IMG/VR virus record: IMGVR_UViG_3300047678_000713 | Span: 1-21,174 of that record | Reading direction: 5' to 3' (one strand) | DNA length: 21,174 bases | DNA from: a virus | The notes under the pieces: generated by a model | The model's database searches: none | The model's input: only the letters and a program-made list of their open reading frames with translations | Told to the model about the DNA's origin: nothing | Position numbers and translations under genes: made by a program | Shown: positions 1,763 through 21,174 of the stretch, one piece after another | Numbering within the stretch: position 1 is the first letter of the stretch | Layout of the letters: every line of letters begins with the position of its first letter

Positions 1763-2911
1763 ATGTTTGAATTCCTGCGCCGCACGCCCCGCGAAACAAA
1801 AGGCGGCTCGCCGCTGATCGCGCTGTCCCTGGCGAACGGGCCGCGCTGGTCGCCGCGCGATACGGCGGGCCTGGCGCGCATCGGGGTGATGAACAATGCC
1901 GTCGCCTATGCCTGTATCCGCAAGATCGCGGGCGCGGCAGCCTCGGTGCCCTGGCTGCTCTATGAAGGCGCGAACGAGCTGGAAGATCATCCGCTGCTGA
2001 CCCTGCTGGCGCGGCCCAATGCCCAGGAAGACGGCCCCGCTTTGTTCGAGCGCTTCCATGCCTTCCTGCAAAGCGCGGGCAATGCCTATCTGGAAGCCGT
2101 TGCGCTGGATGGTGCGCCCCGCGAACTGTATGTGCTGCGGCCCGACCGCATGACGGTGGTGCCGGGCGCGCGCGGCTGGCCCGCCGCCTATGATTACAAT
2201 ATCGGTGGCCAGACCACCCGGCTGGCGCGCGAGGCGGTGTTGCACACCACCCTGTTCCATCCGCTGGACGATTATTACGGCTTGTCGCCGCTGTCCGTCG
2301 CCGCAGGCGCCATCGAGGTGCATAATGCGGGCGCGGCCTGGACCAAGGGCCTCTTGGACAACGCCGCCCGGCCCAGCGGCGCACTTATATATAGGGGACC
2401 GGACGGGACCCCCGGCCTGACCGACGAGCAGTTCGGCCGCCTGAAGCGCGAATTGGAGGATGCCTATCAGGGCGCCGCCAATGCCGGTCGGCCCATGGTG
2501 CTGGAAGGCGGGCTGGACTGGAAGGCGATGAGCTACACGCCCTCCGACATGGATTTCGCCGAAACCCGCGCCGTGGCGGCGCGGGAAATCGCGCTGGCCT
2601 TCGGCGTGCCGCCCATGCTGCTGGGCATCCCCGGCGACAACACCTTCTCGAACTATGCCGAGGCCAACCTGAATTTCTGGCGCCAGACCGTGCTGCCCCT
2701 GGTGGCGCGCACCGCCGCCGCCCTGACGCGCTTCCTGTGCCCGCGCTTCGGCGAAGGCTTGCGCATCGGTTACGACGCTGACGCTGTAGAAGCGCTGGCC
2801 GAGGCACGTGAAACCACCTGGACCAAGCTGAACGAGGCCGGATTCCTGACGGTGAACGAGAAACGCCAGGCCGCGGGCTATTCCCCGCTGGAGGGTGGCG
2901 ACGCTTTGTAG
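1763..2911 (+). CDS. HK97-family phage portal protein (RcGTA g3-like)
   Basis: The portal forms the dodecameric ring at one capsid vertex through which DNA enters and to which the tail attaches. The 382-residue product shows the family's landmarks: an N-terminal segment with NNAVAYACIRKIA, the conserved LLxRPNAQEDG region, the FHPLDDYYGLSPL motif in the middle, and the FGVPPMLLG / TFSNYAEAN block near residues 288-312. Its length is typical of this family. The start ATG is preceded by AGGAG at 1754-1758, directly after the terminase stop. The next gene begins roughly 30 nt downstream. Confidence 0.95.
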   Translation: MFEFLRRTPRETKGGSPLIALSLANGPRWSPRDTAGLARIGVMNNAVAYACIRKIAGAAASVPWLLYEGANELEDHPLLTLLARPNAQEDGPALFERFHAFLQSAGNAYLEAVALDGAPRELYVLRPDRMTVVPGARGWPAAYDYNIGGQTTRLAREAVLHTTLFHPLDDYYGLSPLSVAAGAIEVHNAGAAWTKGLLDNAARPSGALIYRGPDGTPGLTDEQFGRLKRELEDAYQGAANAGRPMVLEGGLDWKAMSYTPSDMDFAETRAVAAREIALAFGVPPMLLGIPGDNTFSNYAEANLNFWRQTVLPLVARTAAALTRFLCPRFGEGLRIGYDADAVEALAEARETTWTKLNEAGFLTVNEKRQAAGYSPLEGGDAL

Positions 2912-2942
2912 AAGGTGCCAATGTCGCTCCATGTGGGAAGGC

Positions 2943-3506
2943 ATGACACTGATCCCGGGACGTGACTGCGGCGACTGCACCGTCTGCTGTACCTGGCCCA
3001 CCATCAACAAGCCGGAGATACAGAAAGTCTCCGGATCGACCTGCAAACATTGTACGGCTTCCGGCTGCGCCATCTATCAGACGCGCTATCCAATCTGCCG
3101 CAGTTACTTCTGCGCCTGGCGCACGGTGGAGATTTTCGACGAGAGCTGGCGGCCCGACAAATCCGGCGTGATGCCCTATGTGGAGACGGAAGGCATCTCG
3201 GACGGTTTCGACCTGTCCACCGGCATCGGCCTGATGCTGGTGGGCCATGCGGAAAAGATCGTACGCCAGCGCTGGTTCCAGGATTTCGTGGTGACGGGCG
3301 TGATGAATTCGGTGCCGCTGTTCCTGTCGATCCCCGGTCCGCGCGGCCACCAGGCCGCGACCACCTCGCTCAACACCGAACAGATGGTGGAGGCGATCAA
3401 CAAGGGCCGCACCAAAGAGGCGCTGGAAGCGGCGGTGAAACTGCTGCGCGGCTGGACATTCGAAAAGGCCGTCATCACTTATTCAGGGAATGACGTCAGT
3501 ACATGA
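2943..3506 (+). CDS. YkgJ-type cysteine-cluster protein inside the capsid operon
   Basis: The 187-residue product has a dense N-terminal cysteine cluster: C9, C12, C15-C16, C34, C37, C42, C52 and C57, in the arrangement CxxCxxCC ... CxxC ... GCxIYxxRxxxCRxxxC. This matches the YkgJ / zinc- or iron-chelating family, whose biochemical role is not well defined. The rest lacks a domain I recognise. The start is uncertain: ATG 2943 is chosen because MxLIPGRxCGDC looks like a family N-terminus, but ATG 2931 or an upstream GTG at 2895 are possible and no ideal ribosome site is seen. Its stop overlaps the next start in ATGA (3503-3506), so it is expressed with the structural genes. It is not one of the standard RcGTA genes. 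Confidence 0.8.
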   Translation: MTLIPGRDCGDCTVCCTWPTINKPEIQKVSGSTCKHCTASGCAIYQTRYPICRSYFCAWRTVEIFDESWRPDKSGVMPYVETEGISDGFDLSTGIGLMLVGHAEKIVRQRWFQDFVVTGVMNSVPLFLSIPGPRGHQAATTSLNTEQMVEAINKGRTKEALEAAVKLLRGWTFEKAVITYSGNDVST

Positions 3507-7196: not shown

Positions 7197-7607
7197 ATGG
7201 CAGCCCAGCGCGGCAAGGACCTTCTCATCAAGATCGGGGATGGCGGCTCGCCCGAAACCTTCACCACCGTCGCGGGATTGCGCGCCACCACGCTGGCCTT
7301 CAACGCCCAGGCGGTTGACACGACCAATGCCGATTCCACCGACGCCTGGCGCGAATTGCTGGCGGGCGGCGGGGTGAAGTCGGCGATCTTGTCGGGTTCG
7401 GGCGTGTTCAAGGATGCGGCTTCCGACGCAGCGCTGCGCGCGGCCTTCTTCAATGCCACCTGCGGCAACTACCAGATCGTGATCCCCAGCTTCGGCATTG
7501 TGCAGGGGCCGTTCAAGATCACGTCGCTGCAATATGATGGCCCCTATGACGGCGAACTGAAGATTTCGCTCTCCCTGGCTTCGGCCGGCGCGTTGAGTTT
7601 CTCCTGA
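7197..7607 (+). CDS. Major tail tube protein, TP901-1 family (RcGTA g9-like)
   Basis: This 136-residue protein polymerises into the tail tube. It begins MAAQRGKDLLIKIGDGGSPETFTTVAGLRATTLAFNAQAVDTTNADS, the conserved N-terminus of the TP901-1-type major tail proteins in GTA-like clusters, and ends with the SLQYDGPYDGELKISLSLASAGALSFS beta-rich tail. GGAGAAAC lies just before the ATG. The last codon's TGA and the next ATG share one base (TGATG at 7605-7609). Confidence 0.93.
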   Translation: MAAQRGKDLLIKIGDGGSPETFTTVAGLRATTLAFNAQAVDTTNADSTDAWRELLAGGGVKSAILSGSGVFKDAASDAALRAAFFNATCGNYQIVIPSFGIVQGPFKITSLQYDGPYDGELKISLSLASAGALSFS

Positions 7608-7954
7608 TGGTCAACCGGATACGCGGCGAAGCGGCGCTGGACGCGGGCGGGCGGCAATATCGCCTGCTGCTGACCCTGGGCGCCCTGGCGGAGATCGAGG
7701 ACGGGCTGGGCTTGGACGATCTGTCCCAGGTCGGCGCGCGCCTGGCGCGTACCCGCGCGGCGGATCTCGCCATCGTGGCCGCAGCGCTGCTGCGCGGCGG
7801 CGGGCATGCGATGTGCGCGGCGGAGGTGCTGCGGCTGCCCTGTGACCTGGGCGAATTGATGCGCGGGATCAGCGACGCATTTGAAGCGGCAGGATTGCGC
7901 GCGCCCCAGGGAGAGGCGCGCGATGCTGCCCCTTTTGCTGGAAGCGCTGGCTGA
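7607..7954 (+). CDS. Tail assembly chaperone, GTA gp10 family
   Basis: The 115-residue product has the GTA gp10 pattern: GEAALDAGGRQYRLLLTLGALAEIEDGLGLDDL near residues 7-39, then an Ala-rich helical middle and a loose Pro/Ala/Gly tail. It lies between tail tube and tape measure, where siphovirus tail chaperones are encoded. It starts one base inside the preceding stop. Near its 3' end the frame reads through the heptamer C CCT TTT, after which a -1 shift would join it to the next small chaperone domain, producing a 168-residue fusion; without a shift it ends five residues later. Confidence 0.88.
   Translation: MVNRIRGEAALDAGGRQYRLLLTLGALAEIEDGLGLDDLSQVGARLARTRAADLAIVAAALLRGGGHAMCAAEVLRLPCDLGELMRGISDAFEAAGLRAPQGEARDAAPFAGSAG
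7908..7936 (+). promoter_or_regulatory. Candidate -1 programmed frameshift site in the tail chaperone
   Basis: Read in the gp10 frame, bases 7930-7936 are C CCT TTT, a canonical X XXY YYZ slippery heptamer. AGGGAGAGG (7908-7916) lies 13 nt upstream and resembles the internal Shine-Dalgarno stimulators known from bacterial -1 sites such as dnaX. A -1 shift leads into the frame coding the next chaperone domain. The gp10 frame meets a stop 15 nt past the heptamer (TGA 7952-7954). I could not establish a convincing downstream stimulatory hairpin. Confidence 0.55.
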
Positions 7955-8112
7955 ATCTCGGGTTGGGTGTGATGCAGCTGACGCCGGATGTGTTCTGGGC
8001 GCTGTCGCTGCCCGAATGGCGCGCGCTGCTGGATGGCCGCGCGGGCGCCAGGGCGCAGCCGCTGGCGCGCGGCGAAATGGAACACTTGATGAGGATGCAT
8101 CCCGATGGCTGA
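7936..8112 (+). CDS. Phage tail assembly chaperone domain (g10.1-like), probably made by -1 frameshift
   Basis: In the -1 frame relative to gp10, residues WLNLGLGVMQLTPDVFWALS and LPEWRALLDG match the small TIGR02216 / phage tail assembly chaperone family found after g10 in GTA-like clusters (LGLGxxxLxPxxFWxLxxxEW). The conserved part begins before any ATG of this frame; ATG 7972 would remove it, and only TTG 7963 or GTG 7969 lie between. ATG 7923 with a good ribosome site is in the third frame. Thus the domain is either made as a gp10 fusion through the 7930-7936 heptamer or the CCCCTTTT run holds an indel. The coordinates give the -1 frame portion, 58 codons plus stop. It overlaps the tape measure start by 8 nt. 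Confidence 0.7.
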   Translation, partial: CWKRWLNLGLGVMQLTPDVFWALSLPEWRALLDGRAGARAQPLARGEMEHLMRMHPDG

Positions 8113-8635
8113 ACCGTCTGTCGAGCAAAGCCTGGCCGGTGCGGCCAAGGCCTTCGCCGATTTCGCCAATGGCCCGGTGGCGCAGACCACCGCCACCATC
8201 GAGGCATCGGTGAATCGCAGTTTCAGTTCGGTGACGAACACCATCGCGCGCACCGCGGTGTCGGGGCGCAATTCCATGGCGCAACTGACGCAAGGCATCC
8301 TGGCCGATTTCGAGCGCATCGCAATCAGCCAGTTCCTCGTCAAGCCGCTTCAGTCTGTGATCGGCGGCGTGATCGGCTCGATCCTGCCGGTGGCGGGGGC
8401 GCGCGCCGCGGGCGGGCCTGTGGCGGCGGGCGAAACCTATCTGGTGGGCGAACAGGGGCCGGAGCTGTTCACGCCGTCGGGCAACGGCACGATCCTGCCG
8501 AACGGCGCGCCGGCGCGCGGGGCCCAGGTGGTCGTCAATATAACAACGCAGGACGCACAGAGTTTTCAGAAATCCAAAAGCCAGGTGGCGGCGATGCTTA
8601 CCCGCGCGATCGCCCAGGGCAATCGCAACCTTTGA
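8105..8635 (+). CDS. Short tail tape measure protein (RcGTA g11-like)
   Basis: At 176 residues this is far shorter than most siphovirus tape measures and also shorter than the already small RcGTA g11 (about 220). The N-terminus is helical; residues 83-103 (KPLQSVIGGVIGSILPVAGA) are hydrophobic and membrane-like. The C-terminal part has the well-known tape measure signature AAGGPVAAGETYLVGEQGPELFTPSGNGTILP and a VVVNITTQDAQSFQKSKSQ tail. These C-terminal features identify it. Tape measure length sets tail length, so the particle's tail should be very short. It begins inside the chaperone stop region (ATGGCTGA). Confidence 0.88.
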   Translation: MAEPSVEQSLAGAAKAFADFANGPVAQTTATIEASVNRSFSSVTNTIARTAVSGRNSMAQLTQGILADFERIAISQFLVKPLQSVIGGVIGSILPVAGARAAGGPVAAGETYLVGEQGPELFTPSGNGTILPNGAPARGAQVVVNITTQDAQSFQKSKSQVAAMLTRAIAQGNRNL

Positions 8636-15737: not shown

Positions 15738-16124
15738 ATGAGCGATATTCTCCAGAGCATGCTGGGGGGCGTATCCAAGCGCCTCAAGAACATGGGCGAT
15801 GGCAGCTTCGCCGAAGTGGCGGCGATGACGCGCGCCCCTTTGAGCTACAGCAATGTGGCCGGTTCGCCCTTCACCCTCACCGCAAGCTGGACCAAGGTGG
15901 CCACCACCACCGCGGCGACCCGCGCTCTGCGCATCGCGCCCCTGGCCGATGCGCCCTTGTTCGACATCGAGTGGGTGGCGGTGGCAGCGGGTTCGGCTGC
16001 GCCGTCCGATCCCTGTGGCGAGCCGGTGCTGGGCGGCGAGGATTTCTCCACCGGGCTTCCCTTGGGCGACATCTATCTGAAGAGCGCCAGTGGCCAGAAG
16101 GCCATCGTGCGGACGGGAGCATAG
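15738..16124 (+). CDS. Unknown phage-associated protein, 128 aa
   Basis: I do not recognise this family. The product begins with a short helix (MSDILQSMLGGVSKRLKNMG) and continues as a Thr/Ala/Ser/Pro-rich, probably beta-structured protein (SGSPFTLTASW-like strands, FDIEWVAVAAGS, STGLPLGDIYLKSASGQKAIV). It has no signal peptide or membrane segment. AAAGGACAGG precedes the ATG, and the stop is 1 nt from the SGNH gene. Position between endolysin and SGNH hydrolase suggests a tail accessory or adaptor for the SGNH protein, but this is inference. Confidence 0.75.
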   Translation: MSDILQSMLGGVSKRLKNMGDGSFAEVAAMTRAPLSYSNVAGSPFTLTASWTKVATTTAATRALRIAPLADAPLFDIEWVAVAAGSAAPSDPCGEPVLGGEDFSTGLPLGDIYLKSASGQKAIVRTGA

Positions 16125-16125
16125 G

Positions 16126-17433
16126 ATGGCCAAGGCCCTTCCCGCGTTTCCCACGTCCATCCAGCTCAAATACCAGAAGCTGTTGCGCGCGGCGGCGCGT
16201 GCCATGCCCGCGCCGGTGATGGCGAGCCCACCCACCCATACACTGGGTGCCGCCAACGCCAACTCCACCCTGGATACCGCGCGTACCACAAGCTACCAGG
16301 GCGGCCAGATCGAGATCGGCACCGATCCGCGTATCGAGCATATCGGCAGATGGGCCTTCAACGGCGCCAGCGCCTATACCGGCCAGATCCAGAACGCGGC
16401 CAACAATGCCGCCACCAAGCGGGGCATGCACGGCCAAGGCATCCGCTTCGGCTTCAACGGCCAGGTGTTCGACATCAGCCTGAACACCGGCAGCTCCAGC
16501 TTCATCATGTATGTCACCGACATGGCCGATGGCGTGCGCCGCCGCGCCCAGGCCAACGACTACACCACGGCTGACAGTTCCTATCACTATGCCAAGTTCG
16601 ATTTCGGTTCGGCGGGCAACCGCATCATCGAACTCTATTTCAGCCCCAGCACCCTGCTGCGCTGCCTCAACATCGCTCCTACCGGGATTGCGCCGGCCGA
16701 TGCGGCCTGCCAGGTCTATCGCGCCCCGGCGACGGATGCGCCGCGCATTCTGACCATGGGCGACAGCTATGAGGACGGCACGGGGAGCGGCAACACCAAC
16801 AATTGCAAGCTGACCGTCACCGATTTCATGGGCGAGCGGCTGGGGGCGCCGAACCTGCTGAGCCTGGGCCGTGGCGGGACGGGTTTCTTGAACCCGAACA
16901 CCGCGTCCCCCGCCTTCGGCACCTACCGCCAGCGCATCACCGATGCGGGAGGCACCGGAACGGGCGATCTGGACCTGGTCCATGTGGGAGAACTGGATTT
17001 CGTCTTCCTGCCGGGGAGCGTGAACGACAATCTGGCCATCAACGCCGCCTACACCGATGCGGCGGTCCAGGCGGAGATCGCGACCTTGCTGCCCCTGGTG
17101 ATGGCGAAACAGCCGCGCGCGGTGATCTATTGTTGGGGACCGCAGGTCACCAACACGGCGGCGGGCGCGGCGGTGCAGACCCGCTATGACGCGATGAAGG
17201 CGGCGGTGCTGGCGGTGGCGGGCGGGCCGAACAATCCGCGTCTGCGCTGGCTGGACAATTCCCCGTCCGGCGAGAATTGGATGTACGGATCGGCCAGTGT
17301 CGGCGTGAACAGCCGCATCATCGGTGCCGACAATGTCCATCTGAATGACGCCGGCATGGCGCTGATCGGCCATCGCCGTGCCAGCAGCATCCTGGCCGAC
17401 GCGCGCGCGGTTCTGGCGGCGGCGGGGCTGTGA
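16126..17433 (+). CDS. SGNH/GDSL hydrolase, probable tail-associated esterase
   Basis: The 435-residue product has a beta-rich N-terminal region (about 1-200) and a C-terminal SGNH domain. Block I is GDSYEDG with nucleophile S214, block II is LGRGGTG (about G249-G250), block III is GSVNDN with N300, and block V is DNVHLNDAG with D402 and H405. The full catalytic set is present, so it is predicted to remove acyl groups, perhaps from capsular or O-antigen sugars. Location among tail and lysis genes suggests a particle-bound depolymerase/deacylase; the substrate cannot be read from the sequence. ATG 16126 is preceded by CGGGAG. GTG 17430 of the next frame overlaps its stop. Confidence 0.88.
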   Translation: MAKALPAFPTSIQLKYQKLLRAAARAMPAPVMASPPTHTLGAANANSTLDTARTTSYQGGQIEIGTDPRIEHIGRWAFNGASAYTGQIQNAANNAATKRGMHGQGIRFGFNGQVFDISLNTGSSSFIMYVTDMADGVRRRAQANDYTTADSSYHYAKFDFGSAGNRIIELYFSPSTLLRCLNIAPTGIAPADAACQVYRAPATDAPRILTMGDSYEDGTGSGNTNNCKLTVTDFMGERLGAPNLLSLGRGGTGFLNPNTASPAFGTYRQRITDAGGTGTGDLDLVHVGELDFVFLPGSVNDNLAINAAYTDAAVQAEIATLLPLVMAKQPRAVIYCWGPQVTNTAAGAAVQTRYDAMKAAVLAVAGGPNNPRLRWLDNSPSGENWMYGSASVGVNSRIIGADNVHLNDAGMALIGHRRASSILADARAVLAAAGL

Positions 17434-20994: not shown

Positions 20995-21174
20995 ATGCGC
21001 ATTCTGCTGGTCGAGGACGACAAGGACCTGCAGCGCCTCCTGAAGAAGGCGCTCGCCGATTCCGGCTATGTGGTGGATGTCGCGGGGGATGGCGAGGAGG
21101 GGCATTTCCTGGGCGACACCGAACCCTATGATGCGGTGATCCTGGATCTGGGCCTGCCCAAGATGGACGGCGTT
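20995..21174 (+). CDS. OmpR-type response regulator, N-terminal part (cut by window end)
   Basis: Only 60 residues are present, forming most of a receiver domain: ILLVEDD with the acidic pocket D8-D9, and phosphoacceptor D51 in VILDLGLPKMDG. The sequence and the DGEEGxFLGDTEPYDAVILDLGLP stretch are typical of OmpR/PhoB-class regulators, so a winged-helix output domain is expected beyond the window. GAGGA (20985-20989) precedes ATG 20995. It forms an operon with the PepSY-like gene; a sensor kinase gene probably follows. Confidence 0.93.
   Translation, partial: MRILLVEDDKDLQRLLKKALADSGYVVDVAGDGEEGHFLGDTEPYDAVILDLGLPKMDGV

Follow-up and report, generated by a model that had tools for sequence, protein, structure and literature searches.

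Comparative evidence for a proposed programmed -1 ribosomal frameshift joining the two tail chaperone frames of an RcGTA-type GTA cluster

In phage lambda, a -1 frameshift of the tail assembly chaperones G and GT was reportedly described by Levin (1993) and by Xu, Hendrix and Duda (2004). The programmed lambda G/GT shift has been reviewed in PMC5009743. The g10-g10.1 junction analysed here is similar in that it lies between the tail tube and tape measure genes and has a probable 0-frame chaperone, a -1 extension and, towards the 3' end of the upstream gene, an X_XXY_YYZ site. However, it uses CCCTTTN where lambda uses GGGAAAG, sequence comparison did not identify its -1 domain (PF09550) as lambda T, and it has a conserved upstream Shine-Dalgarno-like (SD-like) element within a vertically inherited GTA cluster. 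Heptamers with an SD-like element approximately 9-15 nt upstream are also found in the frameshifts of E. coli dnaX and of IS elements (PMC5009743, PMC4066793), but unlike the dnaX/IS911 kind, the present site has no evident downstream stem-loop, lies in other genes and would give a tail chaperone fusion. In alphaproteobacterial phages, a -1 frameshift in the pre-tape-measure chaperone was found in gp93/gp94 of the phiCbK-like Caulobacter phages, at AAAAAAC or, in Colossus, at GGGAAAC (PMC3556154); these are phages with distant proteins and not GTAs. The Rhodobacter capsulatus RcGTA has the same gene order and the same two protein families in g10/g10.1. In contrast, the Rhodobacterales relatives in our tree, from which R. 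capsulatus was judged, use start codons that usually overlap the gp10 stop, in line with the initial annotation, which had RcGTA with separate genes and a fusion as a departure from it. A +1 shift proposed for the Wolbachia GTA (PMC10299305) is in a hydrolase and differs from the -1 tail chaperone shift described here. A search of the open-access literature found no report of a g10/g10.1 frameshift in a GTA.

The window is the whole stretch of DNA analysed, 21,174 nucleotides of IMG/VR record IMGVR_UViG_3300047678_000713. Its genes are arranged as terminase, portal, protease, capsid, g6-g9, gp10, g10.1, tape measure and g12-g15, which is the RcGTA-type order, and matches above cut-off were obtained for NF048004 megatron, TIGR02217 and TIGR02218. 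The features of the junction and of the cluster end are as follows.

7197-7607, + strand: major tail tube protein (g9 type); PF06199 E 6e-43, TIGR02126 E 1e-28
7607-7954, + strand: gp10, the upstream 0-frame partner and probably a tail assembly chaperone of the G type, with 115 aa if unshifted; PF11836 E 2e-10 and predicted fold
7882-7884, + strand: TGA closing the chaperone (-1) frame upstream
7908-7916, + strand: AGGGAGAGG, Shine-Dalgarno-like putative stimulator, 13 nt 5' of the first C of the heptamer
7923-7925, + strand: decoy ATG in the third frame (not the chaperone frame), missing in relatives
7930-7936, + strand: slippery C_CCT_TTT heptamer of the gp10 frame; site kept in 43/43 representatives of the clade and in 81 distinct loci overall
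7930-8112, + strand: g10.1/TAC_6 chaperone domain read in the -1 frame (60 residues, then TGA); PF09550 E 6e-14, invariant W4, F22, W23 and E29
7952-7954, + strand: TGA terminating unshifted gp10
8105-8635, + strand: short tape measure protein (g11 type), 176 aa; PF09718 E 3e-8, NF058675 RcGTA_tape E 1e-12 (below the curated cut-off)
20995-21174, + strand: response regulator gene of the host, truncated at the window end, marking the chromosomal site of the cluster

The frames between the tail tube and tape measure genes of the window overlap, with the downstream frame at -1. The gp10 ATG at 7607 overlaps the tail-tube TGA (7605-7607), and the gp10 codons read GCC (7928), CCT (7931), TTT (7934), GCT (7937) and so on to TGA (7952). 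C_CCT_TTT at 7930-7936 is the only X_XXY_YYZ site in the gp10 frame, and codon shuffling of gp10 gave a chance of 0.006 for any X_XXY_YYZ (Y = A or T) in the open overlap. Translation of the -1 frame from 7930 begins PFCWKRWLNLGLGVMQLTPDVFWALSLPEW, and the predicted slip product consists of 110 gp10 residues followed by 58 chaperone residues, 168 in all. The anatomy proposed in the initial annotation was thus recovered at each point: a heptamer in the gp10 frame on codon-by-codon reading, an upstream element (AGGGAGAGG) 13 nt before its first C, a -1 shift leading into the g10.1 chaperone domain (PF09550 from that point), a predicted 168-residue fusion, and a lambda G/GT-like position with PF06199 upstream and PF09718 downstream.

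The product of the -1 frame matched PF09550 Phage_TAC_6 (E 6e-14), with the profile match starting exactly at the slip point, and, from profile position 1, TIGR02216 rcc01693, whose 45.7 bits fall short of the 56.1 cut-off. The predicted fold of gp10 (pLDDT 86) matched viral models annotated as tail assembly chaperone with TM up to 0.70, and its match with N15 GT was weak (E 0.1). No PDB relatives of either domain were found by sequence or by fold. The simplest reading of these matches is that gp10 would act as G and the gp10-TAC product as GT.

The response regulator at the window end was matched at 86-95% identity past the corresponding end of the cluster in seven of the ten genomes compared (G001, G449, G406, G447, G448, G004 and G003), and the two small genes adjoining it (19888 and 20369) also matched in those seven. 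It was not found in the stretch read of G007 and G432 or in the 17-kb contig of G002, which ends earlier. The PF09550 chaperone was present as a single copy per genome. A fixed site and one chaperone copy per genome give the pattern of vertical inheritance; judged from gene content and location, we take the cluster to be an RcGTA-type GTA passed on vertically and not a mobile prophage. Three other genes of the window were recorded, all on the + strand. A Cys-rich gene of 203 aa without Pfam match (2895-3503) lies between the portal and the next GTA gene, with 73-84% identity in G001, G002 and G004 and absence in the seven other genomes compared. A phage lysozyme gene (PF00959; 15122-15724) directly after g15 and DUF2793 was common only to G002 (L261) among the ten genomes. 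A GDSL-lipase-like gene (16090-17430) at the tail end of the cluster, just under the Pfam cut-off, was present in none of the ten.

Relatives were collected by tail-tube or chaperone homology and not by heptamer, and a tree of 132 representatives was inferred from tail tube, gp10 and chaperone with the P-F columns left out. The window was placed in a clade of 43 representatives (SH-aLRT 100), all of which had CCCTTTN in the gp10 0-frame and the chaperone at -1. The initial annotation had asked whether the heptamer and the -1 relation are kept in relatives, and within this clade they are (43/43). The phase was -1 in 81/81 distinct CCCTTT loci, and the site was present in 27 of the 34 PF09550-bearing genomes of the order of G001. 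A non-redundant set of 74 loci was selected by heptamer, so the fair figure for conservation is the one within the clade. Heptamers in this set were C_CCU_UUU or C_CCU_UUC at 64 loci and CCCTTTG at 10. CCCTTT was also found in 9 representatives of other lineages, Hyphomicrobium among them, and eight distinct loci had the lambda heptamer GGGAAAG or GGGAAAC/GGGAAAA. In Rhodobacterales, Caulobacterales and many Rhizobiales, the chaperone had its own start codon, which often overlapped the stop of gp10; the phase was -1 here too in most cases. Seven loci of Xanthobacteraceae or Methylobacteriaceae type (L081, L148, L157, L163, L164, L168 and L185) had neither ATG/GTG/TTG nor a heptamer and carried CTGA overlapping the gp10 stop. 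One contig labelled Bacillus subtilis SK6B4 (L145) contained a GTA cluster with a Pseudochrobactrum-like g10/g10.1 junction and is probably contamination.

A DNA-similarity search of phages gave matches to short pieces only. Three phage relatives had PF09550 in the -1 frame with a heptamer at the corresponding position, G_GGA_AAC in L269, C_CCT_TTA in L270 and G_GGA_AAC in L272. The gp10/TAC pairs of these phages (positions 1483, 1267 and 1471; MW202777, MW202748 and OP947159, respectively) are annotated as separate genes and not as frameshifts. ORF 00016 of Rhodobacter phage RcapNL (L271, 2429-2998) encodes a gp10-like protein of 190 aa, possibly a natural fusion, whose C-terminus is extended in one frame by a part without a Pfam match; only its gp10 part was recognised, and it was not used as an in-frame gp10-TAC fusion.

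TTT accounted for 11% of Phe codons and CCC for 32% of Pro codons in these genes, so the conserved CCC TTT speaks against chance. In loci without this site, the same Phe was encoded by TTC 24 times and by TTT 16 times. C_CCU_UUY belongs to H_HH.U_UU.Y, the motif class that PMC4066793 lists as the most efficient in E. coli. Across loci, the SD-like element is conserved: GGAG, GAGG or AGGA was present at -28 to -8 before the heptamer in 80% of the 74 loci compared to 10% of control windows, and the best anti-SD duplex at -30 to -11 was -8.3 kcal/mol compared to -4.1 kcal/mol in control windows (p 1e-12). Against synonymous shuffles encoding the same amino acids, the observed duplex was -8.5 and the shuffled -6.5 (p 1e-9), with 7% of loci singly beating their own shuffles at p ≤ 0.05. 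The Gly/Glu-rich linker therefore accounts for part of the SD signal and not for all of it. Spacing between the element and the heptamer had modes of 9, 12 and 15 nt. For RNA structure downstream, none was evident in the window (z -0.35 to +0.40), a weak tendency was seen across loci (mean z about -0.6) and Rfam gave no match, and a downstream stimulatory hairpin was rejected on these results.

The initial annotation had noted that the chaperone lacks a proper start before its conserved part, and this was borne out: from the TGA at 7882-7884 to the conserved W at 7939, the chaperone frame contains no ATG, GTG, TTG or CTG, and ATT 7894 is the only candidate. A separate g10.1 translated by re-initiation after the gp10 stop would have to start there or at CTG 7951, which overlaps that stop. 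Such a scheme has parallels in the ATGA/GTGA-type overlaps of Rhodobacterales and Caulobacterales loci, which have the same -1 phase, and in the CTGA overlap of some Xanthobacteraceae. However, initiation at CTG 7951 begins downstream of W4, a residue of the chaperone domain kept without exception in 59 homologues, and would drop it. From the upstream stop to the start of the chaperone domain, no ATG, GTG or TTG was present in 45 of the 74 loci and not even CTG, ATT, ATC or ATA in 30, and an in-frame stop was located at most four codons 5' of CCC TTT in 12 of the 81 loci. One of these loci (L228rc), in a large single contig, has an in-frame TGA four codons 5' of CCC TTT, with no start codon following. 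Re-initiation also leaves the strict CCC-TTT codon choice unexplained. Initiation at CTG or ATT was rejected on the loss of W4 with CTG and on the 30 loci without near-cognate starts, and we consider re-initiation very unlikely.

A second explanation, raised in the initial annotation, is that CCCCTTTT carries a sequencing error or mutation of one base, with the true g10.1 a separate gene of 62 residues having its own ribosome binding site and ATG 7923. The combination of AGGGAGAGG and this ATG does resemble a good ribosome binding site, and the chaperone homology starts just downstream of it. However, ATG 7923 of the window sits in the third frame and not in the chaperone frame, and with one base fewer, gp10 would also run on in a frame open to 8213, an extension that the initial annotation had foreseen. 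In the closest relative (L002/L082; 96% identity in the tail tube), GCGCGCGATGCTGCCCCTTTTGCTGG of the window is replaced by GCGCGCGAAGCCGCCCCTTTTGCTGG; this relative keeps the C4T4 run (CCCCTTTT) and the phase and lacks the ATG, with GAAGCC in place of GATGCT. Among the 74 non-redundant CCCTTT loci, only the window has an ATG at this position (0/73 others), and the clade members G449, G406, G447 and G448, on single contigs of 3.1-5.0 Mb, have an identical heptamer, phase and layout. The indel with an ATG 7923 start was accordingly rejected on the relatives, its residual probability being slighter still than that of re-initiation. The weakest alternative, transcriptional slippage at C4T4 giving a shifted mRNA, has a short homopolymer pair in its favour but was dismissed as next to impossible, since the runs are of only 3-4 bases where described bacterial cases have approximately nine A or T (PMC5009743), the T run is of three at CCCTTTG/CCCTTTC loci, and the SD-like element and strict phase would be left unexplained.

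Overall, the g10-g10.1 junction is very probably (approximately 0.93) a lambda G/GT-like programmed -1 ribosomal frameshift within a vertically inherited RcGTA-type GTA cluster. The initial observation was confirmed, and its interpretation as a frameshift appears well supported by comparative data. The data establish the anatomy of the site and its conservation, the lack of a start codon, the conserved SD-like element, the homology of the two domains and the fixed place in the chromosome; from these features, we infer slippage in cells, its rate and its role in assembly. The majority of ribosomes would end gp10 at TGA 7952. In a fraction of them, the anti-Shine-Dalgarno would pair with AGGGAGAGG and stall the ribosome over C_CCU_UUU, where tRNA-Pro and tRNA-Phe would re-pair on CCC UUU, and the shifted ribosomes would continue to give the 168-residue gp10-TAC fusion. 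On the analogy of lambda, coating of the tape measure would fall to gp10 and recruitment of the tail tube protein to the TAC domain of the fusion, with the ratio of gp10 to fusion set by the slip rate. As a counterpoint, the clusters of Rhodobacterales, Caulobacterales and many Rhizobiales manage via start codons without a frameshift.

A broader proposal, to which we give slightly less than even odds, is that SD-assisted -1 frameshifting at CCC-UUU/GGG-AAA may be the old state in alphaproteobacterial GTAs and their phage kin. On this view, Rhodobacter's separate g10 and g10.1 would be a derived condition that arose when a stop-start overlap was gained with the -1 phase unchanged, and a whole bacterial order would thus depend on recoding for its gene-transfer particles.

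One GTA study excluded g10.1 as too short (PMC9765227). Gene callers based on start codons cannot find g10.1 in these clusters, which is a possible reason why its annotation has been hard. GTAs are phage machines that bacteria have retained for themselves. A slippery heptamer and SD-like element kept at a fixed chromosomal site in related genomes argues that the chaperone ratio, and hence tail assembly, is still under selection, and a natural experiment is offered by sister lineages of GTAs, some having the frameshift and others lacking it.
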